Virus record (IMG/VR): IMGVR_UViG_3300021513_000008
Location: 1-43,303 of that record
Origin: a virus
Direction: 5' to 3' (one strand)
DNA: 43,303 nt
Made by a program: the position numbers and the translations under genes. Shown here one piece after another: positions 2 to 25,668 of the stretch. Numbering within the stretch: position 1 is the first letter of the stretch; the number at the start of each line of letters is the position of its first letter. The notes below the pieces were generated by a model that saw nothing but the letters and a program-made list of their open reading frames with translations, was not told the origin of the DNA and made no database searches.

Positions 2-193
2 AACCATATATTTAATATTCATATATTAAAAGAACATGATACAAAAGAACATATTAAATATATTACCGATAATAAAAAAATTATTTTAAAGAGATATGAG
101 GAAATTTTTTCTATAATCCCTCATCATTTAGTTTATAATGCTGTAGCATGCACTCCGGAGTATATATTATGCCAAATAAAAATGTGTTCTTAG
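2..193 (+). CDS. Partial CDS, C-terminal end of an unidentified protein (possibly a nucleotide kinase)
   Basis: An open frame enters from the left edge and runs 63 codons to a TAG, so the N-terminus lies outside the window. The visible part is charged and ends with the stretch RYEEIFSIIPHHLVYNAV. It overlaps the start of the next gene by 25 bases, as is common in compact phage operons. The pattern of a basic helix, then IF..P.HL, then a short hydrophobic strand is reminiscent of the C-terminus of phage deoxynucleoside monophosphate kinases. That would suit the nucleotide genes downstream, but it is only a guess from a short stretch. Confidence 0.5.
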   Translation, partial: NHIFNIHILKEHDTKEHIKYITDNKKIILKRYEEIFSIIPHHLVYNAVACTPEYILCQIKMCS

Positions 194-972
194 ATATTTA
201 TCAAAAGGTTTTTAATGGGCCAGAATTAGTAATACGAGGAATGAAAGTCAAAGAATGTAGAAATATAGGATTAACTATAAATTCTATATACCCTATAACT
301 TCTTTTAAATCTAGAAATTTAAATCTCAATTATGCCAAACAAGAAGTCTTATGGTATCTTCGTGGTAATAGATTTGATACTAGTATATGTGATATAGCTG
401 GTGCGTGGAATGATACTATACAACCTGATGGAGGTATAAATTCTAATTATGGTCAAACAATATTTATGGGTCCAAAACATTTTGATTGGGTAATTAGTGA
501 ATTAGTTAGTGATATAAATTCAAGACGAGCTGTTATTATTTTAGGAGAAGCTGATAAATTAAATCCATATAATACAGACCATCGATGTACAATGTATATT
601 AATTATCACATACGACAATATTTTTTACATCAATCGGTATATATGCGTAGTAATGATGCCATATTTGGTTTGACGAATGATGTATTTTTCTTTGGATTAC
701 TTCATCAGATGATATATATAGTATTAAAACTATTTTATCCGAAATTAAAATTGGGTGATTATTATCATCACGCCAATTCATTACATGTATATGAAAAACA
801 TTATGGTATGATGGAAAGTATTATAAATAATAAAGATTGGTATAATATAAATTATCCTACTATTTATGACGAAACAGAAGTATATATGCTACGAAATAAA
901 TATTGTTACTTAAATAAATCTATATCCGATATTCCAACTTATTATAAATTTACTAAATGGTTAAGGAGTTAA
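169..972 (+). CDS. Thymidylate-synthase-fold enzyme, probable dCMP hydroxymethylase/methylase
   Basis: A 267-residue member of the thymidylate synthase superfamily, which transfers a one-carbon unit from methylene-tetrahydrofolate to C5 of a pyrimidine deoxynucleotide. Visible landmarks are NSNYG (91-95), SRR (118-120, phosphate binding), the catalytic Cys140 in HRCT, MRSND (159-163) and LHVY (205-208). The residue that is Asn177 in E. coli ThyA and selects dUMP is Asp171 here (GLTND). T4 gp42 dCMP hydroxymethylase has Asp at the same place, and NSNYG, MRSND and LHVY also resemble gp42, so a cytosine nucleotide is the likely substrate. A separate ThyX nearby can make dTMP. I chose ATG 169 because CGGAG lies 8 bases upstream; ATG 148 has no ribosome binding site. 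Hydroxymethyl versus methyl product cannot be decided by eye. Confidence 0.8.
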   Translation: MPNKNVFLDIYQKVFNGPELVIRGMKVKECRNIGLTINSIYPITSFKSRNLNLNYAKQEVLWYLRGNRFDTSICDIAGAWNDTIQPDGGINSNYGQTIFMGPKHFDWVISELVSDINSRRAVIILGEADKLNPYNTDHRCTMYINYHIRQYFLHQSVYMRSNDAIFGLTNDVFFFGLLHQMIYIVLKLFYPKLKLGDYYHHANSLHVYEKHYGMMESIINNKDWYNINYPTIYDETEVYMLRNKYCYLNKSISDIPTYYKFTKWLRS

Positions 973-973
973 T

Positions 974-2128
974 ATGTCCGTGTATGTATTTATTGAAACT
1001 TTAAAAAATACTAAAGGAACTAATTATAAAAAACAATTATTAAAACAAGGGCCAGAAATTATGGTGCCTATTTTACTTTATACGTATGATCCATTTAAAA
1101 ATTATTATATAAAAAATCTTACTACAAAAGGTAAAGGTAATAAATTTATTGATGAAGATACTTTTAAATTACTTGACAGATTAAATAATAGAGAAATTAC
1201 TGGGAATGAAGCTAGATTTATAGTTGAAAAATATATAATATCTTTAACACCCAATGATGCTAAAATTTTTCATATGATTCTAAATAGAACTTTAGATATA
1301 GGTTTAGGTAGAAAATCTATTAATAAATCTCTAGGAGGTATAATTCCTTCTTATGATGTAATGTTAGCATCAAAAATAGATTGGAACAAAGTTAGATATC
1401 CGTATATTGCATCACCAAAATTGGATGGTATTCGAGCTACATATATAGAAAATAAATTTTATACTAGGACTGGAAAAGAAATTATAGGCGTAGATCATAT
1501 TATTAAAGATTTAAGTAAAATAATTGTACATGCGCCCCTTGATGGAGAATTATTAATTCCAAATATTCCCTTTCAAGTATCATTAGGAAAAATTCGATCA
1601 AATGATCCTACACCTTCAGCTAAATTTTATGCCTTTGACATGATTGACACACATGTTAAATTTACAGAAAGATACGAAGAATTATGTAAATTTAAGGGTT
1701 TTTCTGAATATATAGAAATATTAGATCATCATATTGTTAATAGCAGACAAGAAATAATGAAATTATTTGATGAAAATTTAAATTTAGGATTAGAGGGATT
1801 AGTTCTTAAAAATCCAAATCATTTTTATAAAAGAACTAGATCTACAGATTGGATGAAATTAAAAAATGAATTAAGTGAAGATTTACCAATTATCGGATTT
1901 GAAGAAGGTCGAAATAAATATGAAAATAAATTAGGCGCACTTATAGTTCGTAGAAATAATGGCGTAGAAGTAAATGTAGGTACTGGTTTATCTGATCATG
2001 ATAGAGAAGAAATATGGAATAATAAAGAAAAATATTTAGGAAAAACTGCAGAAGTATTTTTTCATGAAGAAACATTAGATGGAAGTTTACGACATCCAAG
2101 ATTAAAAATTATCAGAGATGATAAATAA
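974..2128 (+). CDS. ATP-dependent DNA ligase
   Basis: A 384-residue polynucleotide ligase that seals nicks through an enzyme-AMP intermediate. The nucleotidyltransferase motifs are clear: motif I KLDGIR with adenylated Lys149, motif III LDGELL (189-194), motif IV EGLVLKN (274-280) and motif V DWMKLK (292-297). A C-terminal OB fold (about 305-384) follows. The length is close to that of T7 ligase (359) and shorter than T4 ligase (487). AAGGAG lies just upstream of the ATG, one base after the stop of the synthase-like gene. The stop overlaps the next start (TAATG). Its probable role is joining Okazaki fragments and repairing nicks during phage replication. Confidence 0.93.
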   Translation: MSVYVFIETLKNTKGTNYKKQLLKQGPEIMVPILLYTYDPFKNYYIKNLTTKGKGNKFIDEDTFKLLDRLNNREITGNEARFIVEKYIISLTPNDAKIFHMILNRTLDIGLGRKSINKSLGGIIPSYDVMLASKIDWNKVRYPYIASPKLDGIRATYIENKFYTRTGKEIIGVDHIIKDLSKIIVHAPLDGELLIPNIPFQVSLGKIRSNDPTPSAKFYAFDMIDTHVKFTERYEELCKFKGFSEYIEILDHHIVNSRQEIMKLFDENLNLGLEGLVLKNPNHFYKRTRSTDWMKLKNELSEDLPIIGFEEGRNKYENKLGALIVRRNNGVEVNVGTGLSDHDREEIWNNKEKYLGKTAEVFFHEETLDGSLRHPRLKIIRDDK

Positions 2129-2373
2129 TGGCTGGTATATTAAAAGAATTTCTTGAAGATGTAAAACTAAAACTAAAATCAAAATATATAAGCGCTAAAT
2201 GGATCACATCTATAGAAGCGTCTATTATTCTTAATACTACACCAGATAAAGTAAATTATTTTGGTAAAAAAGGATATATTGTTAGAAAACGAAAAGGTAA
2301 AATTTGGTTATATAATGAAAAATATATAAAAAAGATAGTTTTAAATTGGTGGATAAAATACGAAATAGGATAA
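2128..2373 (+). CDS. Small helix-turn-helix DNA-binding protein
   Basis: An 81-residue basic protein. Residues 24-70 read as a winged-helix/MerR-like helix-turn-helix: WITSIEASIILNTTPDKVNY for the two helices, then a basic wing (KKGYIVRKRKGKIWLY) ending in a short helix. This layout resembles excisionase or HTH_17-type domains. It is translationally coupled to the ligase, with a one-base overlap of stop and start, and precedes ThyX. A regulator or replication accessory role is plausible, but no specific function can be read from the sequence. Confidence 0.75.
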   Translation: MAGILKEFLEDVKLKLKSKYISAKWITSIEASIILNTTPDKVNYFGKKGYIVRKRKGKIWLYNEKYIKKIVLNWWIKYEIG

Positions 2374-2384
2374 TGGAGAGTATA

Positions 2385-3002
2385 ATGAAAATAGAATTAA
2401 TAAACTATTCAGATATGTCTTGTGATGAAGCTATTTCAGTATGTTATGATTCAATTAAAAAAGTAAATGAAGAGAAAAAACAACGAATTATTAATGTCAT
2501 AAATTCAGGACATTTTTCAATTATGGAGTTTGCTGATTTCACATTTAAAATTTCTGAGGTTAGTAGATCTTTATCTCACCAATTAGTTAGACATAGAATT
2601 GCATCTTATGCTCAACAAAGTCAAAGACATGTAATACCAAATAGTGATGTAGTTATACCTCCGTCTATAAAAGCAAATATAAATGCTTTAGTTATATATG
2701 ATAATCTTATAAATAGAGCTTCTGAAGCATATTTTAAATTGCTTAAAAGAGGTATACCAAAAGAAGATGCACGATATTTATTACCTAATGCTACATATAC
2801 GACTATCGTCGTCAAAATGAACGCCCGTACTCTGAATGAATTTTTTGATCTTAGATGTTGTAATCATGCACAATGGGAAATTAGAAAGATGGCTAATAAA
2901 ATGTTGAAGATTTGTAGAGATACTGAGCCAATATTATTTTTAAGTGATTTTCCAAAATGTAAGAAATGTGAAAATAGATGTGATAATCCTATAAATTTAT
3001 AG
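2385..3002 (+). CDS. thyX: Flavin-dependent thymidylate synthase ThyX
   Basis: A 205-residue protein that converts dUMP to dTMP using FAD, NADPH and methylene-tetrahydrofolate. The ThyX signature RHR-x7-S is present as RHRIASYAQQS (69-79), preceded by the family segment SEVSRSLSHQLV. The upstream GHFSIMEF (42-49) corresponds to the conserved His-Ser-x-x-Glu stretch. The length fits the family. I placed the start at ATG 2385 because GGAGAG sits 4-6 bases before it; ATG 2373 and TTG 2346 are in frame but lack a good ribosome binding site. It provides dTMP independently of the ThyA-like protein at 169, which frees that enzyme for another nucleotide. Confidence 0.93.
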   Translation: MKIELINYSDMSCDEAISVCYDSIKKVNEEKKQRIINVINSGHFSIMEFADFTFKISEVSRSLSHQLVRHRIASYAQQSQRHVIPNSDVVIPPSIKANINALVIYDNLINRASEAYFKLLKRGIPKEDARYLLPNATYTTIVVKMNARTLNEFFDLRCCNHAQWEIRKMANKMLKICRDTEPILFLSDFPKCKKCENRCDNPINL

Positions 3003-3011
3003 AGGTAAATT

Positions 3012-3641
3012 ATGGAAAAGGATTTACAATATTTAAATCTTGCTAAACATGTCTCTATGTGGTCTAAAGATCCCAGTACTAAATGTGGAGCTGTAATTAC
3101 AGATAAGTTTAATAGAATAATAGGTACAGGATTTAATGGATTTCCTAGAGGATATCCAGATTCACCTGAAGAATATGATAATAGAGAAAATAAATATAAT
3201 AAAATTATCCACGCTGAAGTAAATGCTATTCTTTTCTCTACAAAATCTTTAGTAGATTGTACAATGTATGTATACCCGATGTTACCTTGTTGTCGATGTG
3301 CTTCAATAATATGTAATACAGAGATTATTAAAATTGTTGCTCCGGAGTTAAATAAGGAGTTAGAAGAACGTTGGGGAGGGTCAATAGAAATTACAAAGGA
3401 TCTTTTTAATAAGTGTAAGAAAATTTATAAAGAAGTAAAAATGAGTGAATTGAGTTTTAAACCTAAGGTACAATTAATTGGTTCGGATGGTAATGCATTT
3501 TCTATAATAGGAAAAGTAGTTCAAGTTATGAAAAAACATGGATTTAACCAACAAGTAATAAATAATTATAAAAAAGATGCTTTAAAAGGAGATTATAATC
3601 ACTTATTACAAATAACATCTAAGTATGTAGAAATAATATAG
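3012..3641 (+). CDS. Deoxycytidylate deaminase with an added C-terminal domain
   Basis: A 209-residue protein. Residues 1-142 form a zinc-dependent dCMP deaminase, which makes dUMP for thymidylate synthesis. The zinc site is visible as HAE (67-69, catalytic Glu69) and PCCRC (Cys93 and Cys96), and the N-terminal DPSTKCGAVI is family typical. Residues from about 144 (MSELSFKPKV) form a second small domain with a GSDGNAF motif (157-163) and a GDYNHLL motif (193-199). That pattern also occurs as a free-standing small phage protein of unknown function. A good start (AGAGGTAAATT ATG) lies 9 bases after thyX. The second domain starts with its own Met but has no ribosome binding site, so a fusion is likely. 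Confidence 0.9.
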   Translation: MEKDLQYLNLAKHVSMWSKDPSTKCGAVITDKFNRIIGTGFNGFPRGYPDSPEEYDNRENKYNKIIHAEVNAILFSTKSLVDCTMYVYPMLPCCRCASIICNTEIIKIVAPELNKELEERWGGSIEITKDLFNKCKKIYKEVKMSELSFKPKVQLIGSDGNAFSIIGKVVQVMKKHGFNQQVINNYKKDALKGDYNHLLQITSKYVEII

Positions 3642-4788: not shown

Positions 4789-5724
4789 TTATACTCCTAT
4801 AGATAAAAAATAATCAATTGTTTTTTTCAAACCTTCTTCGAGATTTATTTTTGCTTCCCAATCTAATACTTTTTTAGCTAAAGTAATATCAGGTTTTCGT
4901 TGTTTTGGATCATCTCTAAGTGATGTTTTAAATATAATTTTTGACTTTGAATTTGTTAATTTAATAATTTTTTTAGCCAGATTTAAAATAGTAATTTCAG
5001 TAGAATTACCTAAATTTACTGGACCTATAAAATTATTAGGTGTAGCCATAAATCGTATAAAACTTTTAATTAAATCATCTACATAACAAAATGAACGGGT
5101 TTGTTCTCCAGATCCAAAAATTATAATCGGCTTATTTTGAAGTGCTTGAACAATAAAATTTGATATTACTCTTCCATCATTAACACACATACGTGGCCCA
5201 TACGTATTAAAAATACGCGCAACTTTAATATTTAAATTATATTGACGGTGATAATCAAAAAATAATGTTTCAGCACAACGTTTTCCTTCATTATAACAAG
5301 CACGTATTCCTATCGGATTAACATTTCCCCAATAATTTTCTACTTGAGGATGAGTTTTAGCATCCCCATATATTTCACTAGTAGAAGCTTGAAATATTTT
5401 TGCGTTATTAGTTTTAGCTAAATTGAGTATATTAATAGCGCCATAAATATTAATCTTAATAGTTTGTATAGGATCAGATTGATACTTAATTGGCGATGCG
5501 GGGCAAGCTAAATTATAAATTTCATCCACAATTAAAGATATTGGAGAAATAATATCATGCTGGATAAGTTCAAAATTTGGGTTATTTTTTAAGTGATGAA
5601 TATTGCTATCATTTCCAGTAAAAAAATTATCTATACATATGACATTACATTTATCTTTTAATAAATATTCACATAAATGTGAACCTAAAAAACCTGAGCC
5701 GCCTGTAACTAATATTCGTCTCAT
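4789..5724 (-). CDS. NAD-dependent epimerase/dehydratase, UDP-glucuronate decarboxylase-like
   Basis: A 311-residue extended short-chain dehydrogenase. The N-terminal Rossmann motif is TGGSGFLG (7-14). The catalytic triad region has STSEIYGD (114-121) and Tyr144-x3-Lys148 in RACYNEGKR. The stretches [10 protein letters not shown] (73-82) and RACYNEGKR are typical of UDP-glucuronate decarboxylases, which make UDP-xylose, and of close relatives using dTDP-glucose. It is the only sugar-nucleotide enzyme seen in the late block. Together with the glycosyltransferase at 19581 it could support modification of host surface sugars or of virion components. The exact substrate is not certain from sequence. 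Confidence 0.85.
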
Positions 5725-10477: not shown

Positions 10478-11632
10478 TTAAATTGAGAAAGTAGCTAGTT
10501 TTGACCTTGCTGGAGTAGGCATATCTGTTTTTGATGTCCAAGTATCAGGATCATATTCATCTGTATCTTGAAGATCATTAGAATTATCATTCCCACCATA
10601 TATATAACATTTACTATCTACTGTAGATGCTGCTAAATAGGCCCTTGCTGGAGTAGGCATATCTGTTTTTGATGTCCAAGTATCAGGATCATATTCATCT
10701 GTATCTTGTAGCATAGAACTCAGTTCTCCAGCATAAACATAACATTTGTCAGATAGTGTAGCTGCCGCTAAATACTGCCTTGCTGGAGTAGGCATATCTG
10801 TTTTTGATGTCCAAGTATCAGGATCATATTCATCTGTATCTTGTAATTTACTAGAACCATCACTACCACCAAGAATATAACCTTTGTCCAATATTGTTAC
10901 TGCTGCTATACCACGTCGTACAGGAGATGGACAATTCGTTTTACTTGTCCAAGAATCTGGATTATATTCATCTGTATCTTGAAGATTATTAGAACCATCA
11001 TATCCACAATAAATGTAACCTTTATCATTTATTGTTGAAGAAGCTAATTTATCTCTTGCTGGTGTTGGGGTATTAGTTTTACTTACCCAAGTATCAGGAT
11101 CATATTCATCTGTATCTTGAACTCTAACAGAACCATCATATCCACAATAAATGTAACTTTTCTCAGAAATAGTAGATGCTGCTAAATAGGCCCTTCCCGG
11201 TGAAGGCATATCTGTTTTTGATGTCCAAGTATCAGGATCATATTCATCTGTATCTTGAAGATAACCATCACCATAGCCGCCAACAATATACCCTTTACTT
11301 GCACCTGTAGCAACTTCTTCAACCTCTTCTTCATCACCTACCTGAGCAACAATAACCCATTTATTAGTATCATGCCAGACCAACATTCTGGAATCATATT
11401 GAGTAAGTTCAATAGTTTGCTCACCATTAATAGTGTCACTGGTTCCAGCATCTATTGTAATCGTAATATCTGATAAATTAGTAAATATAATCCTATCACC
11501 GATAGTCCTATTAGAAGTAGGTAAAGAAATTGTATAGTCAGCAGAACCAGAACAAACTAGATGAGCATTATTAAAACCTGCTGGTAATGAAGTTGTACTA
11601 GTAATATAAATTATCCTTTTAAAAATATTCAT
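10478..11632 (-). CDS. Kelch-repeat tail fibre protein (third of three)
   Basis: A 384-residue protein. Residues 1-110 form a beta-rich fibre domain shared with the gene at 11774 (CSGSADYTISLPTS, then ITITIDAGTSDTINGEQTI). After a short acidic hinge (DEEEVEEVA), residues 112-384 hold six kelch-type units of about 45 residues: hydrophobic strand KGYIYCGYDGS, then LQDTDEYDPDTWTSKT, then MPTPARAYLAASTI. Six or seven such units close into a beta-propeller, a common carbohydrate- or protein-binding platform, so this is a likely receptor-binding tip. AGGA lies 7 bases before the ATG and overlaps the old end of the upstream kelch gene. Confidence 0.85.
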   Translation of the reverse strand: MNIFKRIIYITSTTSLPAGFNNAHLVCSGSADYTISLPTSNRTIGDRIIFTNLSDITITIDAGTSDTINGEQTIELTQYDSRMLVWHDTNKWVIVAQVGDEEEVEEVATGASKGYIVGGYGDGYLQDTDEYDPDTWTSKTDMPSPGRAYLAASTISEKSYIYCGYDGSVRVQDTDEYDPDTWVSKTNTPTPARDKLASSTINDKGYIYCGYDGSNNLQDTDEYNPDSWTSKTNCPSPVRRGIAAVTILDKGYILGGSDGSSKLQDTDEYDPDTWTSKTDMPTPARQYLAAATLSDKCYVYAGELSSMLQDTDEYDPDTWTSKTDMPTPARAYLAASTVDSKCYIYGGNDNSNDLQDTDEYDPDTWTSKTDMPTPARSKLATFSI

Positions 11633-11641
11633 ACTAATATC

Positions 11642-11773
11642 CTATAATCCGAAAGAACCCATTGAATATCTTCCCGGTGCAGGAGCATCTGTTTTGCTAG
11701 TCCATGTATCAGGGTCATATTCATCAGTGTCTTGAAATAATTAAAACTTATATAACCAACAATAATATAACCT
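11642..11773 (-). pseudogene. Detached last kelch repeat of the middle fibre gene
   Basis: Downstream of the TAA that ends the gene at 11774, the sequence still encodes kelch-like sequence in the original frame: QDTDEYDPDTWTSKTD then APAPGRYSMGSFGL and a TAG at 11644-11642, matching the style of the natural end of the gene at 12947 (YAEASFGV). Two small lesions separate it. An extra A turns the expected TCT GAT AAA GGT into TCT GAA TAA near 11778, and one base is missing near 11737-11750. Between them, the shifted frame reads KGYIIVGYI. The lesions look recent, or may be sequencing errors in a repeat region. Confidence 0.7.
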
Positions 11774-12937
11774 TTATTCAGAAACAGTAGAAGCAGCTAA
11801 TAAACATCTAGCAGGACTAGGGCAATCAGATTTAGATGTCCAAGTATCAGGGTCGTATTCATCAGTATCCTGAAAAGAATCACCATTATTATAACCACAA
11901 TAAATATACCCCTTATCATTTATTGTTGATGCTGCTAAATTACTTCTCCCTGGACTAGGGCAATTCGTCTTTGACGTCCAAGTATCAGGGTCGTATTCAT
12001 CAGTGTCTTGTAAGTAACTACTACCATCATAACCCCCATAAATATAACCTTTATCTAATATTGTTGAAGCAGCTAATCTATGTCTTCCTGGACTAGGACA
12101 ATTAGTTTTTGATGCCCATGTATCAAGAGTAGGGTCGTATTCATCAGTGTCTTGTAAGTAACCACCACTATCACCACAATAAATATAGCCTTTATCTAAT
12201 ATTGTTGAAGCAGCTAAATATATTCTCCCTGGACTAGGACAGTCAGCTTTAGATGTCCAAGTGTCAGGGTCGTATTCATCACAGTCTTGTAAATAACCAC
12301 TATAACCACAATAAATATAGCCTTTATCTAATATTGTTGAAGCAGCTAAATATCTTCTAGCAGGGCTGGGGCAATCAGATTTTGAAGTCCATGTATCAGG
12401 ATCGTATTCATCAGTGTCTTGGAGATTATTAGAACCATTATAATTATTATAACCACAATAAATATAACCTTTATCCAATATTGTTGATGCTGCTAAATGA
12501 GCCCTAGCAGGACTTGGGCAATTAGTTTTTGATGCCCATGTATCAAGGGTAGGGTTGTATTCATCAGTGTCTTGTAAGTAACTACTACCATCATAACCCC
12601 CATAAATATAGCCCTTACTTGCACTGGGAACAGCGACAACTTGAACACCAACATCAGCTATCTTTTCCCACCCTTCTAAAGTATAAACAAGAAGAGTAGA
12701 ATTATACTGTCCTAATGAAATTGTTTGATCCCCACCAATAGTATTACCTGTTCCAGCATCTACTGTTACTGTAATATCATCAAGACAAACAATTAAAATC
12801 TGAACACCTAAAATTAACATAGATGTTGGTAAAGAAACAGTGTAGTCAACAGAACCAGAACAAAGAATAGTTTTATTAAAATCATCAGTTGTTAATGTAG
12901 TTGCTGCTGAAATGGATTTTACGTCTGAGTATATCAT
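11774..12937 (-). CDS. Kelch-repeat tail fibre protein (second of three), truncated
   Basis: A 387-residue protein paralogous to the one at 10478. It has an N-terminal fibre domain (CSGSVDYTVSLPTS, then ITVTVDAGTGNTIGGDQTI, 1-105) and six kelch units (105-387) with LQDTDEYDPDTW or LQDTDEYNPTLDTW cores; two units carry the two-residue insertion TL. It ends abruptly in the middle of a repeat (LAASTVSE) because of a one-base insertion; the remains of unit seven follow at 11642. The loss may leave an incomplete propeller. A GGAATAAATT ATG start overlaps the region just after the first kelch gene. It probably binds a host surface structure. Confidence 0.85.
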   Translation of the reverse strand: MIYSDVKSISAATTLTTDDFNKTILCSGSVDYTVSLPTSMLILGVQILIVCLDDITVTVDAGTGNTIGGDQTISLGQYNSTLLVYTLEGWEKIADVGVQVVAVPSASKGYIYGGYDGSSYLQDTDEYNPTLDTWASKTNCPSPARAHLAASTILDKGYIYCGYNNYNGSNNLQDTDEYDPDTWTSKSDCPSPARRYLAASTILDKGYIYCGYSGYLQDCDEYDPDTWTSKADCPSPGRIYLAASTILDKGYIYCGDSGGYLQDTDEYDPTLDTWASKTNCPSPGRHRLAASTILDKGYIYGGYDGSSYLQDTDEYDPDTWTSKTNCPSPGRSNLAASTINDKGYIYCGYNNGDSFQDTDEYDPDTWTSKSDCPSPARCLLAASTVSE

Positions 12938-12946
12938 AATTTATTC

Positions 12947-15511
12947 CTATACTCCAAAAGAAGCCTCTGCGTATCTTGCTGGCGTAGGTGTATCTGTTTT
13001 TGAAGTCCACGTATCAGGGTCATATTCATCACAATCTTGTATTGCACCACCACTATCACCACAAAAAATATACCCCTTATCATTTATTGTTGTAGCTGCT
13101 AAAAACGCTCTTCCCGGTGTTGGCATATCTGTTTTTGATACCCAAGTATCGGGGTCATATTCGTCAGTGTCTTGTAAATTACTCATACCCCCATAAATAT
13201 AGCCTTTATCTAATATTGTTGATGCCGCTAAATATTGTCTTGCCGGTGTAGGAGCATTAGTTTTTGAAGTCCATGTATTAGGATCGTATTCATCACAATC
13301 TTGAAGAGCAGCACTACCATATCCACAATAAATATATCCTTTATCAGAGATAGTTGATGCCGCTAATCTACTTCTTGCTGGCGTAGGTGCATCTATTTTT
13401 GATGTCCAAGTGTCAGGATTATACTCGTCTGTATCTTGAAGAGCAGCACTACCATATCCACAATAAATATATCCTTTATCAGAGATAGTTGATGCCGCTA
13501 ATCTACTTCTTGCTGGCGTAGGTGCATCTGTTTTTGATGTCCAAGTGTCAGGATTATACTCGTCTGTGTCTTGTAATGATGCAGTACCATAACCACAATA
13601 AATATAACCTTTATTACTTATTGTAGAAGCCGCTAAATACTGCCTTCCCGGTGTTGGCATGTCAGTTTTATTAGTCCAAGTATCCGGGGCATATTCGTCT
13701 GTATCTTGAAGAACATCAGTATCATAACCACCAGCAATATATCCTATTGTTGCACAAGTAGCTATTTCGGCAATAACAGAACTAAATACTTTTACCCATT
13801 TACCACTAACCCAAATCAGTATCATAAATTCATATTGACTAAACTGTAATGGGGTATCAGTGTATAAATCATCAGAAGCAACATATGCACCATCAGCATG
13901 TGTACTAATAATCCCAACCCTACTACCTTCTGGAACAGCAGTAGAAGGTAATGTAAGAGTATTTGCAGTTGTCATTAAGTATAATTTCTCAAGACCAGAA
14001 ACAGGAACAGTAAAATCAGCATCTAATTCTGTTTGGTTTTGAAATAGCTGAAATTCAGTATCATCTTCATTACCAGAACTTCCAGATGAAGCGTGACTAT
14101 GTAAAGTGGTTTCACCGCCATCTGTTAAACCATCATGCTGTGCTTCTGTTAAATGATGATATTCTCCAGCCTGTCCACCTTGTAAATTAGTTAATGCATT
14201 ATGATCAGAAGTGGTTAATGACTTTCTACTAAAAACTTCATCACGCCAATCAATATAATCATCACCTTCATCAGTGGTAACAATTCTAGCTTTTACTGTA
14301 TTTGTCCAATCTTTATCAGTTTGGAAAATAACGGTAGCAATCGGTCTTAATTCGGGTAATAATGTTTCGTTTGTTACTAAAGAATGAATTTCTGTTTTTG
14401 CACCAGTTCTAGCTTTTGCTTTTGTCCCATAAGAATTTTGACCAACAAATACTATTGCTGGTTTATTTTTTTCAGTAGATGCAAAAACATGATATAATAC
14501 AAAATCATGTTCGGGAACTTCTGTTAGTTGCCAAACAGTACCAGTCCATTCATTATAATACAATCTACCTGTAGCACTAGAAGAATTTAAAACTGAATAT
14601 CCAGCCCGAATTGTTTTCTCTAAATCACCAGCACTTCCAATTAAATTATAAATTGGTAAACCAACTGTAGAAGCTACTGCTGCGATATCAATGACAAGAT
14701 CTTCATCTTTAACCACACCACTACTAACACCAAATTGTGCATGTGTATTACTACTTGCATCACCATCAGCAGAAATATCGGCCAATCCTAATCCAGAATC
14801 ATAGAATAAACCAACTTCATAATGCAAATATTCATGAACTGCTCCAGGCATACTTAATCCATGTCGTTCTTCCCCAACATAGATTGCTTTTGCTTCACTT
14901 TTATCCCAATAAATAATAGAAACAAGTGCTTTATTTTTAATAATATCACTAATATCAGCACCAGCGACATGCGTAGCAATAAGAGTAGCATCAAGAAAAT
15001 AAATAAGATGTAAACCTTCAGTATCGGCAATAACCACAGTACTTGCGGCTGTTTTGTTAAATTCTTTACCTTGATACCAATAGGAAAATGAAGAAGCTAC
15101 AGGGGAAATAGAAAGGGTTCTGGTTGCATCAGTAAAAGAAAATGTAGAATCTGTTAAATTTGGAAAACCTGTTGGCTCACCTTCAATATCAAATCTTTTC
15201 CCTATTTCTGCTAAAATTGTTTCTACATTTGTACCATTATAATAATCATCTGAATCATCTACTGATATTTCATCTGCATCCGGTACTGTAGAAGTTCCAC
15301 CAGTTTGTGTAAAAGTTAAAGGAGAAGTATCAGTTACAGTCCATAATGAACCATCATCTATTTGAAAACATAAACAATATAATCCATCATCATCTGTAAT
15401 AGAAGAACCGTCAGGGTTAGTTGTTATTGCATTACGAGCGGTGGCATCAGCAACAACCCATCTTGCTATTCTATGTATATCAGTATCTTTTAACTTCCCA
15501 TGCCAAGGCAT
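12947..15511 (-). CDS. Large tail fibre protein with C-terminal kelch propeller (first of three)
   Basis: An 854-residue fibre. The N-terminal part (1-550) begins MPWHGKLKDTDIHRIARWVV and contains fibre-typical beta sequence, including a YHHLTEAQHDGLTDGG segment (about 450-465) of the sort that recurs in phage fibres, and a Gly/Ser linker. A beta domain (about 480-590) resembles the head domain of the two smaller kelch fibres. Residues about 595-850 contain six kelch units (LQDTDEYAPDTW to IQDCDEYDPDTW). Two neighbouring units are nearly identical at DNA level. It probably attaches to the baseplate by its N-terminus and carries the propeller at its tip. Confidence 0.88.
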   Translation of the reverse strand: MPWHGKLKDTDIHRIARWVVADATARNAITTNPDGSSITDDDGLYCLCFQIDDGSLWTVTDTSPLTFTQTGGTSTVPDADEISVDDSDDYYNGTNVETILAEIGKRFDIEGEPTGFPNLTDSTFSFTDATRTLSISPVASSFSYWYQGKEFNKTAASTVVIADTEGLHLIYFLDATLIATHVAGADISDIIKNKALVSIIYWDKSEAKAIYVGEERHGLSMPGAVHEYLHYEVGLFYDSGLGLADISADGDASSNTHAQFGVSSGVVKDEDLVIDIAAVASTVGLPIYNLIGSAGDLEKTIRAGYSVLNSSSATGRLYYNEWTGTVWQLTEVPEHDFVLYHVFASTEKNKPAIVFVGQNSYGTKAKARTGAKTEIHSLVTNETLLPELRPIATVIFQTDKDWTNTVKARIVTTDEGDDYIDWRDEVFSRKSLTTSDHNALTNLQGGQAGEYHHLTEAQHDGLTDGGETTLHSHASSGSSGNEDDTEFQLFQNQTELDADFTVPVSGLEKLYLMTTANTLTLPSTAVPEGSRVGIISTHADGAYVASDDLYTDTPLQFSQYEFMILIWVSGKWVKVFSSVIAEIATCATIGYIAGGYDTDVLQDTDEYAPDTWTNKTDMPTPGRQYLAASTISNKGYIYCGYGTASLQDTDEYNPDTWTSKTDAPTPARSRLAASTISDKGYIYCGYGSAALQDTDEYNPDTWTSKIDAPTPARSRLAASTISDKGYIYCGYGSAALQDCDEYDPNTWTSKTNAPTPARQYLAASTILDKGYIYGGMSNLQDTDEYDPDTWVSKTDMPTPGRAFLAATTINDKGYIFCGDSGGAIQDCDEYDPDTWTSKTDTPTPARYAEASFGV
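13301..13570 (-). repeat. Two nearly identical 135-bp kelch units in tandem
   Basis: Positions 13301-13435 and 13436-13570 differ at only two bases over 135 bp. Each encodes one 45-residue kelch unit (RSRLAASTISDKGYIYCGYG, SAALQDTDEYNPDTW or its QDCDEY variant). Other units in the array are clearly more divergent, so this is a recent duplication or gene conversion. The unit length of exactly 45 codons means that gain or loss of a unit keeps the frame. Confidence 0.9.
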
Positions 15512-18925: not shown

Positions 18926-19558
18926 TCAACTACCACCTGTTTCAAACATACAACCCCAACCCCCAGTATTAACATAAGTGGGATCTGTAAGAGCCTTATG
19001 ACCAGCCACTTGTCCAGATATAACTTCAAACCAAATATCTACTGAACTTACATGACTATTTTTATTCAAGAAAGGTATTATTTTACCTCCCCCAAGTAAG
19101 GGCCATGTTTGTAACATAGTTAGATTTGTATATGGATGACCAGTTCCAAAATAAAAAGGATTACCACCATTACCAGGTACATAATTCCTAAATACTTTCG
19201 GCTGTAAAAATCCTATGGGGACATCGGCTGAATCAAAAATTAAAGGTATAATAGACACTGCGGCTTCACTACCGTTCATATAAGCTTTGAACTGAATTCC
19301 TACAACTAATGCAGAACCGTCACCAATTATTTTACTCTCTGCTATTAAATTAGCTAGACTAGTTGATGTTAATTGGGTCTCATCATCAACAGTCTTTGTT
19401 CGATCGGGTGCAGATTGAAGAAAAGAAAAATGACGATTAGCTTGATCCATTAATTGAATTACCCGTGCGTTACTTTCTGTATCTTGTTCGTATGCATCAC
19501 GAATAGCAATAGCTTCTCCACCAGCTTGATCATTAATTAATATACTTTTTTCAGCCAT
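18926..19558 (-). CDS. Virion protein with shared N-terminal anchor, copy B
   Basis: A 210-residue protein starting MAEKSILINDQAGGEAIA, identical to the beginning of the protein at 20377. Homology continues through RVIQLMD (residues 33-39) and then fades into a divergent beta-rich C-terminal region (VSIIPLIFDSADVPIGFL). Over 70 bases at the 5' end (19494-19563) there is only one mismatch to copy A (20990-21059). The pattern, a constant N-terminus with a variable C-terminus, is typical of exchangeable receptor-binding or decoration proteins. The glycosyltransferase gene lies between the two copies. Confidence 0.7.
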   Translation of the reverse strand: MAEKSILINDQAGGEAIAIRDAYEQDTESNARVIQLMDQANRHFSFLQSAPDRTKTVDDETQLTSTSLANLIAESKIIGDGSALVVGIQFKAYMNGSEAAVSIIPLIFDSADVPIGFLQPKVFRNYVPGNGGNPFYFGTGHPYTNLTMLQTWPLLGGGKIIPFLNKNSHVSSVDIWFEVISGQVAGHKALTDPTYVNTGGWGCMFETGGS

Positions 19559-19580: not shown

Positions 19581-20375
19581 TTAAATTTTACTTTGTTGAT
19601 AAACTTTCACCATATCTGGTAACAAGTAAGTTTTTATTTCTCTTCCTTCTACAAAAACTTTTTGTAAACGATTATATGAACCTAATAAATTATGAATGAT
19701 AGATATATATTTATTATTTACATAAAATCCATCTATTTTTAATTCTATAATATCATCTTTGTTCCAACCAGTTAAATAATTATATTCTTGGGGTAAATTA
19801 TTTTTATCTAACCCTAAATAAAAACTTGCAAATTCAAAACAAAGTTGTTCAACAAAAGGAGAAAATACTTTTTTTGTTTTATAATATTCTCTGGTTTTAT
19901 TAAATAACTCCATTTGATTATTAAAAACCATTACACCTGTATTTAAACTTTTTGTATACGCTTCATATGGAATTTCACAGCTTAAATGTTGAAAATTAAC
20001 CACTCTATTTCCTAATGGGAGAAAAGATGCACCAAAACCATAAATATCTGCAAATTCTGATAATTGTGTAAAACAGTGTGGATTTTGTACCCAAACATCT
20101 GAATCAATATAAATAAATTTATCTTGTTTTACAATTTGATCTAAATTAATTTTTAAATCATGCGCATATTTAAGATATGATGCTTTTTCAAATTTATAAA
20201 AAGTAGTATCAACTGATATACTTAATTTTTGTAAGTAATTAATTTGATATGGATGTAAATCATATCCTAATACAGTTAAATTTTTTAATATTTTTTCTTC
20301 TTTTTTCAAAGAAGTAATTAAATACATTAATAGAGGAAAATATGTAGATGTAGTTATTGTATATATAGGATACAT
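19581..20375 (-). CDS. Glycosyltransferase, GT8-like
   Basis: A 264-residue protein with hallmarks of a GT-A fold retaining transferase: N-terminal strands (YTITTSTYFPLLMYLITSL), a DxD motif in FIYIDSDVWVQNP (about 97-109), and SLNTGVMVFNNQ, the typical GT8 segment after it. A later His (IIHNLLG) may complete metal binding. It would transfer a sugar from a nucleotide-sugar donor to host surface, phage protein or phage DNA. I placed the start at ATG 20375, two bases after the upstream stop. An earlier in-frame start (20420) would overlap the preceding gene by 44 bases. It lies between duplicated virion proteins, which makes virion glycosylation a real possibility. Confidence 0.75.
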   Translation of the reverse strand: MYPIYTITTSTYFPLLMYLITSLKKEEKILKNLTVLGYDLHPYQINYLQKLSISVDTTFYKFEKASYLKYAHDLKINLDQIVKQDKFIYIDSDVWVQNPHCFTQLSEFADIYGFGASFLPLGNRVVNFQHLSCEIPYEAYTKSLNTGVMVFNNQMELFNKTREYYKTKKVFSPFVEQLCFEFASFYLGLDKNNLPQEYNYLTGWNKDDIIELKIDGFYVNNKYISIIHNLLGSYNRLQKVFVEGREIKTYLLPDMVKVYQQSKI

Positions 20376-20376
20376 A

Positions 20377-21054
20377 TTAATATCCAAACCCTTGATCTTT
20401 TGGGCTACAATTAAAAGCAAAATCAGGTTCTACACGTCTAGCATGACCGGATAAAATCCAAGCATAGAATCGAATATCCGGGTAAGCATTATAGGTATCA
20501 TCCCCGTCAAAACGAAAAAGAAAATTTAAAAAATTAGCACCACATAAATCCCAAGAAAACATTGACGTGTAATTCCAATAAGTCCCAGACATATCAATAT
20601 ATAAAGAATCTTGGGGAGTGCCCATACCATCAAGAGCAGGGTTAATAGGAAAGAAAGGATGAAAAGGTAGAGCACCAATTATTTCTGGTGTAGCAGAAAA
20701 ATTATCCATAACAATATGAGGAATTACTTTAATTGAAAAAGAACCCCCATAATCTCTAATATATGATTGATAAGTATCATCAAACTTAAATTTAACACAA
20801 CCTACTAATGTTTCACCATCACCTACAGACATAACACCATTAATTAAATCACTACCATAAGAATAAGTAGTATTATCTACTAATCTTACTTGGAAATCAT
20901 CGTGACCTATGCCTGTTAAAGGTAATTTTCTTGTGGCTTTGTCCATTAATTGAATAACACGATTATTAGTATCAGCATCTACTTCTGCTGCATCACGAGT
21001 AGCAATAGCTTCTCCACCAGCTTGATCATTAATTAATATACTTTTTTCAGCCAT
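20377..21054 (-). CDS. Virion protein with shared N-terminal anchor, copy A
   Basis: A 225-residue protein whose first residues MAEKSILINDQAGGEAIA equal those of the protein at 18926, followed by a related RVIQLMDKA segment and a different beta-rich C-terminal part (SIKVIPHIVMDNF, IRFYAWILSGHAR). Both copies end with a similar W-x-x-S/V-G strand region (FYAWILSGHA versus IWFEVISGQV), so they are true paralogues. GGAG lies 7 bases before ATG 21054, which I prefer to an ATG four codons earlier. It is the first gene after the late promoter at 21099-21138, so it heads a fibre/lysis transcript. Probably a tail-tip or decoration protein. Confidence 0.7.
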   Translation of the reverse strand: MAEKSILINDQAGGEAIATRDAAEVDADTNNRVIQLMDKATRKLPLTGIGHDDFQVRLVDNTTYSYGSDLINGVMSVGDGETLVGCVKFKFDDTYQSYIRDYGGSFSIKVIPHIVMDNFSATPEIIGALPFHPFFPINPALDGMGTPQDSLYIDMSGTYWNYTSMFSWDLCGANFLNFLFRFDGDDTYNAYPDIRFYAWILSGHARRVEPDFAFNCSPKDQGFGY

Positions 21055-21098
21055 AATAAGCTCCAAAAATTAAATTTTATGTTATATTATTTTATAAT

Positions 21099-22653: not shown

Positions 22654-22855
22654 GATAATCCTCCTTTTCAAAGTGTTGTAATAATTCTAAGGATTGTTCT
22701 ATTTTAATTAGTAGTTGTTTTGTATCTCCTAAACCTCCAATAAGATATGTTTTTATTTCATTTAATACGGATACCAAGCTTTTTCTACCTTGTGAAGGTA
22801 TGGGCTCTAATTCTTTTTTCAATAACTCAGAAAGTTCACCTTTAATTTTAATCAT
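22550..22855 (-). CDS. Small helical protein, 101 residues, overlapping the next gene
   Basis: Its ATG overlaps the stop of the 937-residue gene (TAATG), supporting translation. Residues 1-66 (MIKIKGELSELLKKELEPIP... IKIEQSLELLQHFEKEDY) are a coherent charged helical region. From residue 67 on, the frame runs through the coding region of the next gene, and the amino acids (Ser/Asn/His-rich, GSNSNISQLGKCSGNS) look unselected. The natural end may lie near residue 66, with the original stop lost, or the overlap is real. No function is recognised. Confidence 0.5.
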   Translation of the reverse strand: MIKIKGELSELLKKELEPIPSQGRKSLVSVLNEIKTYLIGGLGDTKQLLIKIEQSLELLQHFEKEDYRGSNSNISQLGKCSGNSRVSHTQHNNPIAYNPKR

Positions 22856-25668
22856 TAGTTTAATACCACCGAATTTGAATAAGATATATTATTTGGAACA
22901 AAAAATGGACCTGCTACTATTTTACCTGTTCTATCATAAACTATATACTGAATTTTTCCACATTGAGCAAATATACGTGATGTAGATGGAACATCATGTA
23001 TCGTATTATGAGGAGTTAATCTATCACTTGTATCTATTATATTATCCCCAGAATACATACCAAATGTTCCAACAATATAATTACCATCTTGGGTTATAGT
23101 ATAACTGGGACAATAAGGAAACGATCCTTTTATTTCAAAAGTGGCTGGCTGATAAAATTCTTTATCTTCATAATAAGCAAGATTTCCTGTCTGTACAAAC
23201 ATTTCAAAACGATCTTCAATTATTCCTACTAAAGCAGTTATTACAACATTACTATTATTATCAGGTTGAGGAGAGCCAAATGTTAAAGAAATACTGCCAG
23301 AATTATAATCTATTACAGAAGTAGCTAAATGTGAAGACGTATCTATAATCATGCCCTCACCATCATCTATAACCCGATAATTTTGTCCTTCAACCATATA
23401 TTTTACTTCAACACTAAAAGGTTTAATAGGACCATCCATTTGGAATATAAAATTTTCTTGTATACCATTTGCTGCTTGTTCATGATAATCATAATTATAC
23501 TCAATTTCTGTCACATCTATATCAGGTATTCCACCTAGTTGAAATTTAGAAACAACATCCCCATTTACATTTATTAAAACACACCAATAAGTCATTTCTA
23601 ATTCATAATAATATTCTTTCATATAATTATCTATAGATGGGTTATCCCAACTGTTTTCTTCATATTTAGTTACTCGCGATATTCCATATGTAATTACAGT
23701 TTCCCCTTTACTAAAACTAGCAGGTTCATTATAATTATATTCTGGGGATGAGTGAAAAATAGACCCAACAAAAATACCACTAAACATTACTTCCCCAGAA
23801 GTACTATTATCCTGCATAGAAAATTCAATTGTTATCCCATCTACAACTAATGAGCAACTATTATAATCTATATCTAGATATATTGAACGTCCATCTGGAT
23901 CATATTCTATATATTTTCTACCTGAAACATAATTTATAACCGCAGGTACATATAAAGTGCTTTGTATATTATGATAATGTCCTCCGCCTGTTAAAAATTG
24001 TGTAGCATTAAACCCATATTCTTCTGTATGAGTACTATTTGTAATTCGTCCCAAACCCCATCGATCCCAAGATATTGCTCGATATGTTATACAATGAGGC
24101 CTAAATTTAGTTCTAGGTGCAGAAGAAAAAGCCCGTAAACAAGGCATATTTTGGTATATAGTTTGTTTATCACTACCTAAATGTGTAATACTATCATCCA
24201 TATTAAGAATACATCGATCAAATGAATATTCAGAAGTACTTTGTTCTCCAGGTAAGGTAAAAACACCTACAAAATACCACCTAATTTCTTCTCCTATTAT
24301 ATGATAATCACATCCAAACCCAACGTTAGTAAAATTTGCATCTATCATTAAAGCAAAATGGGATTCACTGTTACACCAACTTGTAAATGCATTATCTAGT
24401 AATTCATTAGTTAAATCAGTATTAATATATACAATTTCATTAAAATTTAAAATTTCTCCTACACTCTGATATTTAATATTTGCTTGATTTACTCTATCTA
24501 CAACTGTTTTTCCTGTTGGATCAACATGCCCAAAAAAATCCTCCGTAGCCATTTTAGTTGCGTAATCTTTTGCTACTATCGCTAATTCACTATCCCAATT
24601 TAATACTGATTCACCATATTCACAAGTTCTAATAATATTGGTTTGTTCTAATAAACGTTTTATTGAATTATCTGTAAGACTAATATTTTCACAATCTTCA
24701 TCTAATACTATATTAGCTACTGAAAAACCTTTTGTATAACTAACTGTTGAACTACCCTCCCATTCAGTGATAGCCCAATAATAATCTCTATCATATAAGA
24801 AAATCAATGCTTCTGATAATCCAAAACGAACTACATCTGGAATAGATAAAGTTCCACCAAATGATGGATGATTATATGTCCATCGTATATCTGATCCGCC
24901 CCCATATGCAGGCCAACTAAATCCTAATCCCCACATTATATCCGGAAGACCTAATCCAAGTGTAGGTGCAGAAGGAATATTATTATTATCTTTATAAGAA
25001 ACATCTAACCAAAATAAACGTTTTCTTGGTTCAAAAGCCCAACGAGATGTTACACCTCTAGGTGTACCTGTAGTTAATAAGTATCTTCTAACAAAACCTA
25101 TATTTCTAATAATACAAGGATGTTTTGGATTATTACCTAACCAACGAATAGTTCTATTAGAATACCAATTCTCAAAGACTTTGATTAGTACATAGCCATC
25201 ATGTGTTGCTACAATTAAACCATCATCTTCACATGTTCTAGAATCAATTTTATTATCTTTTATTTTTTTTGTTACTCTTTCTGATAAAAATACTCCTTTG
25301 TGTGTTTTATTAAAATAATCAGATTTAGAGTCATCTCGTACTAATTTCCCACTTCCATCCGCGGAACCACATGCATTTGATAAATCAAGTAATAATTCTG
25401 ACTTGGTTCCATCGTCTACATCAGCATTTTCAGATTCATTTATTTCACCTTTTTTATTTCTTATAAGACTTGTGCCTATAATATTTTGTTGGGCTATATT
25501 TTCACTCGTTGATATATTATTTGGCGAATTATTAGAAAATTGTAACTTTGTATTTTTTTGCTCGATTTGTGGAGATACTACAACATTACTACTACCTATA
25601 GATTTAGCTATAGATATAGAAAGTATTTCTTGATTTACAATAGTTTTCGCTGTTTCTTGTTTTGCCAT
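22855..25668 (-). CDS. Large tail protein with an internal CAP/SCP domain
   Basis: A 937-residue virion protein. The first 120 residues are Ser/Asn/Lys-rich and low in complexity. At about 333-472 there is a CAP (SCP/PR-1) domain: helix RLLEQTNIIR, LNWDSELAIVAKDYA, then FFGHVDPTG (His381), VGEILNF (Glu405 at the GEN position), AFTSWCNSESHFALMI (His437), and FTNVGFGCDY, WYFVGVF. Flanking regions are beta-rich (IRWTYNHPSFGG; later IEYDPDGRSIYLDIDYNS). The C-terminus carries another beta domain (YYELEMTYWCVLINVNG). CAP domains occur in secreted proteins that bind lipids or polysaccharides and sometimes act as proteases, so this may help adsorption or wall passage. Confidence 0.7.
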   Translation of the reverse strand: MAKQETAKTIVNQEILSISIAKSIGSSNVVVSPQIEQKNTKLQFSNNSPNNISTSENIAQQNIIGTSLIRNKKGEINESENADVDDGTKSELLLDLSNACGSADGSGKLVRDDSKSDYFNKTHKGVFLSERVTKKIKDNKIDSRTCEDDGLIVATHDGYVLIKVFENWYSNRTIRWLGNNPKHPCIIRNIGFVRRYLLTTGTPRGVTSRWAFEPRKRLFWLDVSYKDNNNIPSAPTLGLGLPDIMWGLGFSWPAYGGGSDIRWTYNHPSFGGTLSIPDVVRFGLSEALIFLYDRDYYWAITEWEGSSTVSYTKGFSVANIVLDEDCENISLTDNSIKRLLEQTNIIRTCEYGESVLNWDSELAIVAKDYATKMATEDFFGHVDPTGKTVVDRVNQANIKYQSVGEILNFNEIVYINTDLTNELLDNAFTSWCNSESHFALMIDANFTNVGFGCDYHIIGEEIRWYFVGVFTLPGEQSTSEYSFDRCILNMDDSITHLGSDKQTIYQNMPCLRAFSSAPRTKFRPHCITYRAISWDRWGLGRITNSTHTEEYGFNATQFLTGGGHYHNIQSTLYVPAVINYVSGRKYIEYDPDGRSIYLDIDYNSCSLVVDGITIEFSMQDNSTSGEVMFSGIFVGSIFHSSPEYNYNEPASFSKGETVITYGISRVTKYEENSWDNPSIDNYMKEYYYELEMTYWCVLINVNGDVVSKFQLGGIPDIDVTEIEYNYDYHEQAANGIQENFIFQMDGPIKPFSVEVKYMVEGQNYRVIDDGEGMIIDTSSHLATSVIDYNSGSISLTFGSPQPDNNSNVVITALVGIIEDRFEMFVQTGNLAYYEDKEFYQPATFEIKGSFPYCPSYTITQDGNYIVGTFGMYSGDNIIDTSDRLTPHNTIHDVPSTSRIFAQCGKIQYIVYDRTGKIVAGPFFVPNNISYSNSVVLN

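Follow-up and report, generated by a model that had tools for sequence, protein, structure and literature searches.

A predicted dCMP hydroxymethylase cassette at the edge of an AT-rich phage genome, with probable carbamoyl decoration of cytosine

The virus record IMGVR_UViG_3300021513_000008 is an entire linear virus sequence of 43,303 bases, analysed here in full (the window), and it opens with a plus-strand operon whose first complete gene encodes a homologue of the thymidylate synthase ThyA. The sequence is AT-rich (31% GC), encodes a sheath-like tail protein and gave no DNA-level match to known phages; exact-pattern scans found no overlapping or close contig, and the left neighbour of the window was not recovered. 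The ThyA-like open reading frame (ORF) spans 148-972 (+). Because the upstream frame (bases 2-190) overlaps this ORF, the ATG at 169 is the likely start, giving a protein of 267 residues, and all residue numbers count from it. Upstream, cut by the contig edge, lies the C-terminus of a short P-loop kinase of the phrog_761 type (2-193, +; 63 residues and a stop codon), a fragment absent from an earlier note made on this DNA from its letters alone. Downstream follow an ATP-dependent DNA ligase (974-2128, +; PF01068, PF14743) and an 81-residue ORF that overlaps the ligase end and has no assigned function (2128-2373, +). The next ORF (2346-3002, +) encodes an intact ThyX, the flavin adenine dinucleotide (FAD)-dependent thymidylate synthase (PF02511, 2e-61; TIGR02170 above cut-off), with the RHR-x7-S motif in the form RHRIASYAQQS and a likely start at ATG 2373 or 2385. 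The last gene of the operon (3012-3641, +) encodes a deoxycytidine monophosphate (dCMP) deaminase with the HAE/PCxxC motifs (HAE...PCCRC), matches to PF00383 (3e-17) and PF14437, and a C-terminal extension of phrog_1933. Pfam matches and motifs thus bear out the separate ThyX and dCMP deaminase that the earlier note had placed in this operon.

Membership of the 169-972 protein in the ThyA superfamily is indicated by PF00303 (E 2e-15) and phrog_160 (1.6e-32). Its top sequence matches in the PDB are the T4 dCMP hydroxymethylase (dCH, gp42; 4e-15) and the cytidine monophosphate (CMP) hydroxymethylase MilA (2e-14), and true ThyAs begin only at 2e-8. The key residues located by alignment are Glu59, Trp80, Ser92, Tyr94, Arg119, Asp137, Cys140, Thr141, Ser161, Asp163, Asp171, His206 and Tyr208. 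As the earlier note had stated, Cys140 is the catalytic cysteine, Asp171 stands where ThyA has Asn177, and the motifs NSNYG, MRSND and LHVY are all present. Cys140 and Glu59 correspond to the T4 catalytic residues Cys148 and Glu60, and Asp171 to position 177 of the E. coli thymidylate synthase (EcTS) and to T4 Asp179, the residue of cytosine selection. Asp171 is invariant across 46 aligned relatives. At this position all 80 E. coli-like phage ThyAs of IMG/VR carry Asn, while Asp is found in 156 of 157 family matches among the relatives and in 81 of 81 gp42-like matches; its presence is not due to chance. Asp at position 177 has been linked to cytosine substrates (PMC6400193, PMC5175136).

A further feature, which the earlier note did not include, is the Asp three residues before the catalytic cysteine (Cys minus 3), by which hydroxymethylases can be told from methylases. 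In T4 dCH this residue, Asp145, activates the added water together with Ser94 and Tyr96; the D145N variant is inactive, and thymidylate synthases carry Leu at that position (PMC6400193). The equivalents in the window protein are Asp137, Ser92 and Tyr94, and the full published hydroxymethylation signature is present. Written as the residue at Cys minus 3 followed by that at position 177, E. coli ThyA, which makes thymidine monophosphate (dTMP), is Leu/Asn; SPO1 gp29, a deoxyuridine monophosphate (dUMP) hydroxymethylase, is Asp/Asn; T4 gp42 is Asp/Asp; and the enzyme of DLP4, itself related to the 5-methylcytosine phage Xp12, is Asn/Asp, with a dihydrofolate reductase (DHFR) gene adjoining. RB69ORF048c is Glu/Asp and has its folate-binding Asp replaced by Asn (RSND to RSQN). 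The window protein is Asp/Asp and retains the folate Asp, Trp80 and Tyr208. DLP4 stands in here for Xp12 as the dCMP-methylase-type comparator; its product is probably 5-methyl-dCMP, judging by its kinship to Xp12 and its restriction-resistant DNA, and a non-acidic Cys minus 3 as the mark of a methylase derives from DLP4 and T4 mutagenesis, not from an assayed phage methylase. The dCMP and CMP types have been defined by Arg/Ser versus Lys/Ala residues of MilA (PMC5175136), and in the MilA alignment the window protein has Arg119 and Ser161, the dCMP type, against Lys133/Ala176 of the CMP type. The ThyA hallmarks Asn177, Leu143 and His147 are replaced by Asp, Asp and Thr. Hydroxymethylation is favoured over methylation because the Asp137/Ser92/Tyr94 signature differs from the patterns of ThyA, DLP4, SPO1 and RB69, and the protein is most likely, by its active site, a dCMP hydroxymethylase. 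The earlier note had left the product open between hydroxymethyl and methyl; the Asp at Cys minus 3 narrows it to hydroxymethyl.

An AlphaFold2 model of the protein, based on an alignment of 46 locus sequences, reached a predicted local distance difference test (pLDDT) score of 94. In Foldseek searches with this model, MilA (4e-19) and T4 dCH (7e-16) outrank every thymidylate synthase, and MilA also leads in VIA-align (Z 27.6, root mean square deviation 2.4, 255 aligned). Enzymes of the T4 dCH type lack the C-terminal closing tail of thymidylate synthase, and on this feature the evidence for the window protein is divided: the Pfam match to ThyA ends at profile position 225 of 266, yet the model aligns with ThyA up to residue 265. 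Phylogenetic placement, a check proposed in the earlier note, puts the protein outside the ThyAs. In a maximum-likelihood tree (IQ-TREE) it is sister (100/99) to its homologue in L008, a 41-kb IMG/VR record, to which it is about 57-60% identical; both fall within a clade of 27 rows (100/99), and nine ThyAs form a separate clade (100/100). In FastTree with a larger set the sisterhood with L008 has a support of 0.999, and both are placed inside a carbamoyltransferase-linked group. A single-sequence scan of viral contigs returned no relatives, but alignment queries did find them. The family looks mainly viral, since bacterial and archaeal genomes gave only two relatives.

The gene neighbourhood points to a known cassette. 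An Asp177-type ThyA, a carbamoyltransferase, PF01503, a dCMP deaminase and a DNA ligase have been associated with modified phage DNA in MetaGPA (Yang et al. eLife 2021, PMC8670742), and a carbamoyltransferase from such a contig converts 5-hydroxymethylcytosine (5hmC) to 5-carbamoyloxymethylcytosine (PMC8670742). In L008 the genes are ordered carbamoyltransferase, PF01503 pyrophosphohydrolase, short P-loop kinase, ThyA-like protein, ligase, dCMP deaminase and ThyX; Xanthomonas phage Xp15, MD-2021a and Effie share the core of this cassette. The exact order from carbamoyltransferase through pyrophosphohydrolase and kinase to the ThyA-like gene recurs in 25 of 26 carbamoyltransferase loci (21 of 22 distinct records), most of these cassettes also have the ligase after the ThyA-like gene, and all 26 ThyA-like proteins have the complete hydroxymethylase signature. 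The kinase lies directly upstream in 25 loci, 22 of them with the carbamoyltransferase; the other three are the window itself, a locus whose sequence reaches just 782 bases upstream, and L031, the one genuine exception. The window holds the Asp177-type ThyA-like gene, the dCMP deaminase, the ligase nearby and the short kinase directly upstream, and the spacing in L008 would put the end of the carbamoyltransferase about 0.8 kb past the left contig edge.

The 63 residues of the kinase fragment tie the window to this cassette type. Among 10,627 ORFs, a profile from four relatives, with the window left out, finds the fragment at 1.1e-9; the sole phmmer matches of the fragment itself are kinases from cassettes of the carbamoyltransferase type, L008 being the best (1.3e-8), and blastp against Xp15 gp37 gives 8e-7. 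The fragment matched no kinase of the sister clade described below, where most P-loop proteins encoded upstream have lengths of about 300 to 380 residues. In an AlphaFold2 model of the L008 homologue (pLDDT 94) the kinase has a thymidylate-kinase fold: its structural matches are YorR, from a Bacillus prophage, at Z 16.7, and dTMP kinases at Z about 13-14. The kinase is a natural candidate for phosphorylating 5-hydroxymethyl-dCMP. No Pfam family matches it above the gathering cut-off, so a Pfam-based scan such as MetaGPA would probably have passed it over. Chances seem to us even that it is a dedicated 5-hydroxymethyl-dCMP kinase and that it forms, with the PF01503 pyrophosphohydrolase and the hydroxymethylase, a portable module for supplying the modified triphosphate, which gains a carbamoyltransferase in one lineage and other decorators in the sister lineage.

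Taken together, the best explanation, to which we give a probability of about 0.85, is a dCMP hydroxymethylase cassette with probable carbamoyl decoration. Cys140 would attack C6 of dCMP, Asp171 would read the cytosine at N3/N4, and the one-carbon unit would come from methylene-tetrahydrofolate. Asp137, with Ser92 and Tyr94, would position a water that adds to the exocyclic methylene, replacing the hydride transfer of thymidylate synthase, and the product would be 5-hydroxymethyl-dCMP. The upstream kinase probably raises this product towards the triphosphate, and a pyrophosphohydrolase removing deoxycytidine triphosphate is expected just beyond the left edge, as is a NodU-family carbamoyltransferase that would act on 5hmC in DNA. 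The dCMP deaminase would supply dUMP for ThyX to turn into dTMP, independently of the ThyA-like protein. Judging by its genes, the phage very likely carries modified cytosine in its DNA, and, by analogy with the MetaGPA phages, genomic 5hmC that is probably carbamoylated to 5-carbamoyloxymethylcytosine; carbamoylation is likely, at a lower level of confidence than the modification itself.

Several points weigh against this explanation. Neither a carbamoyltransferase nor a pyrophosphohydrolase was found in the window. A sister clade (L009, L010, L012, L014-L017, L028, L029, L031 and L062, with Glu at Cys minus 3 in L010) has nearly the same signature and no detected carbamoyltransferase, and IQ-TREE places the window protein and L008 basal to both the carbamoyltransferase-linked and the sister groups, at a support of 86/75 only. 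VIA-align does not split T4 dCH (Z 22.4) from ThyA (Z 22.8) or from 9iqc (Z 22.6). Decoration with a pentose is also conceivable, as the window has a UDP-glucuronate decarboxylase gene. Residues, fold, phylogeny and synteny are computed here, activity, the missing genes and virion DNA chemistry are inferred from them, and what is said of enzyme and virion DNA is computational throughout.

Other ThyA-fold activities explain the active site less well. A dCMP methylase, in which the methylene intermediate is reduced to 5-methyl-dCMP as in full-5-methylcytosine phages such as Xp12, would be in line with the finding, from work summarised in PMC8670742, that an Asn-to-Asp exchange alone shifts ThyA in the direction of methylating dCMP, and with the Asp177-type enzyme and restriction-resistant DNA of DLP4. 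It is improbable here, as the DLP4 enzyme has Asn at Cys minus 3 and DHFR next door, whereas the window protein has Asp and the window holds no DHFR match, and as D145N in T4 abolishes hydroxymethylation. Even less probable is an FAD-dependent 5-hydroxy-dCMP synthase of the RB69/Mosigvirus type, leading to glycosylated 5-hydroxycytosine (PMC13390438; title of PDB 9iqc). RB69ORF048c shares superfamily and dCMP specificity with the window protein, and its homologue in PDB 9iqc is a riboflavin-dependent dCMP monooxygenase; its Glu at Cys minus 3, Thr for Ser94, Ala for Trp80, Asn for the folate-binding Asp and Phe for Tyr218 are nevertheless all absent from the window protein, and the two are 19.7% identical. 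Equally hard to credit is a true thymidylate synthase, or a dUMP hydroxymethylase, that happens to carry an atypical Asp. The shared fold, the catalytic Cys and a dUMP-making deaminase in the operon would suit it, but the operon already has ThyX, the ThyAs stand apart in the tree, and the SPO1 dUMP hydroxymethylase retains the Asn in place of Asp171. Active-site residues, phylogeny and gene neighbourhood therefore support a dCMP-type rather than a dUMP-type enzyme, the core of the earlier note's case for modified cytosine.

The remaining alternative concerns the decoration, namely a pentose added to hydroxymethylcytosine from UDP-xylose. Its source would be the full-length UDP-glucuronate decarboxylase (UDP-xylose synthase; 4789-5724, -), whose assignment is strong (human UXS1, 3e-108), possibly with a GT8-like protein (19581-20420, -), and pentose-decorated cytosines are known from RB69 and Thanatos. 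This is unlikely, since neither gene occurs in 17 related, cassette-bearing records, both belong to the structural block on the other strand, and the genes of the epimerase family that lie close to other hydroxymethylases are of a different type, only 23-25% identical to the decarboxylase. No T4-type glycosyltransferase was found in the window, as the earlier note had said. Its distant candidate, the GT8-like protein, did not hold up as a DNA glycosyltransferase: the match to Pfam Glyco_transf_8 is below cut-off (E 0.012) and no PDB or phage homologue was found. The likelier decorator is a carbamoyltransferase of the NodU family encoded just off the contig, and the GT8-like protein may instead act on the virion or host surface.

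Further observations concern the structural block and the related loci. The decarboxylase gene, which adjoins one for a DUF1353 protein where the block ends, shares 66% identity with genes of phage contigs from human faeces. The GT8-like gene sits between two paralogous proteins that start with MAEKSILINDQAGGEAIA (18926-19558 and 20377-21066). Three consecutive ORFs of kelch/galactose-oxidase-like repeats (10478-15511, -; YDPDTWTSK..., GYIYCGYDGS...) probably encode internally repetitive tail or receptor-binding proteins, and a 937-residue protein (22855-25668, -) has a CAP (cysteine-rich secretory protein) domain (PF00188, 1e-11), which is unusual in a phage tail region. In the sister clade, weakly matching glycosyltransferase-like genes lie near the hydroxymethylase (L062:3908-4981 and L029:6868-8139; PF13439, PF13524), which, with no carbamoyltransferase detected there, suggests that the decorator has been swapped. 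In L320:8284-9132, L321:8690-9577, L322:8272-9141 and L323, the ThyA-like protein that accompanies the cassette's kinase and pyrophosphohydrolase belongs to a divergent family, which has Asp at position 177, Arg at Cys minus 3 and Asn aligned to the catalytic Glu58 position; by these residues it fits no known product class and could be a further dCMP-modifying activity. Elsewhere, a strongly altered second ThyA paralogue beside a normal hydroxymethylase (L086:8259-9167, L087:8262-9167) keeps the Cys, has Glu for the folate Asp and has lost Tyr96. In one phage (L071:13527-14708) a hydroxymethylase-type copy (Asp/Asp) occurs alongside a canonical ThyA (Leu/Asn), which provides an internal control for the residue rule that follows.

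For ThyA-like phage proteins, Asn at position 177 would indicate uracil and Asp cytosine, and the Cys minus 3 residue together with the folate Asp would sort methyl, hydroxymethyl and hydroxyl products. Many such proteins are annotated merely as thymidylate synthase, so this rule could be useful for predicting modified genomes, in defence studies and in phage engineering. Rather than a novel type, the window cassette is a clear further instance of a way of disguising phage DNA that was described only recently, and it would add a divergent AT-rich, tail-sheath-bearing lineage to the users of the hydroxymethylcytosine/carbamoyl route against restriction.

Compared with known systems, the window protein shares all catalytic, cytosine-selecting and water-activating residues with T4 gp42 (PDB 1b49, 6a9a), although the two are only about 25% identical and belong to separate clades, and Thr83 stands at the position of EcTS Trp83 and T4 Val85. 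The operon partners also differ, being kinase, ligase and ThyX in the window and a glucosyltransferase with T4 gp42. MilA (PDB 5b6d, 5jp9), the top structural match, has the same Asp pair but the Lys/Ala residues of a ribonucleotide enzyme, where the window protein has the Arg/Ser of deoxyribonucleotide enzymes. RB69ORF048c (PDB 9iqc) shares the ThyA fold and the dCMP-type Asp and lacks the folate-type residues that the window protein keeps. The MetaGPA-type cassettes of Xp15, L008 and the Acinetobacter phages Effie, HHU4 and MD-2021a resemble the window in the upstream kinase with its short C-terminus, the full signature, the ligase and the dCMP deaminase, and Xp15 and L008 also have ThyX; the window differs from them in the order of ThyX and deaminase and in its sheath-like tail protein.

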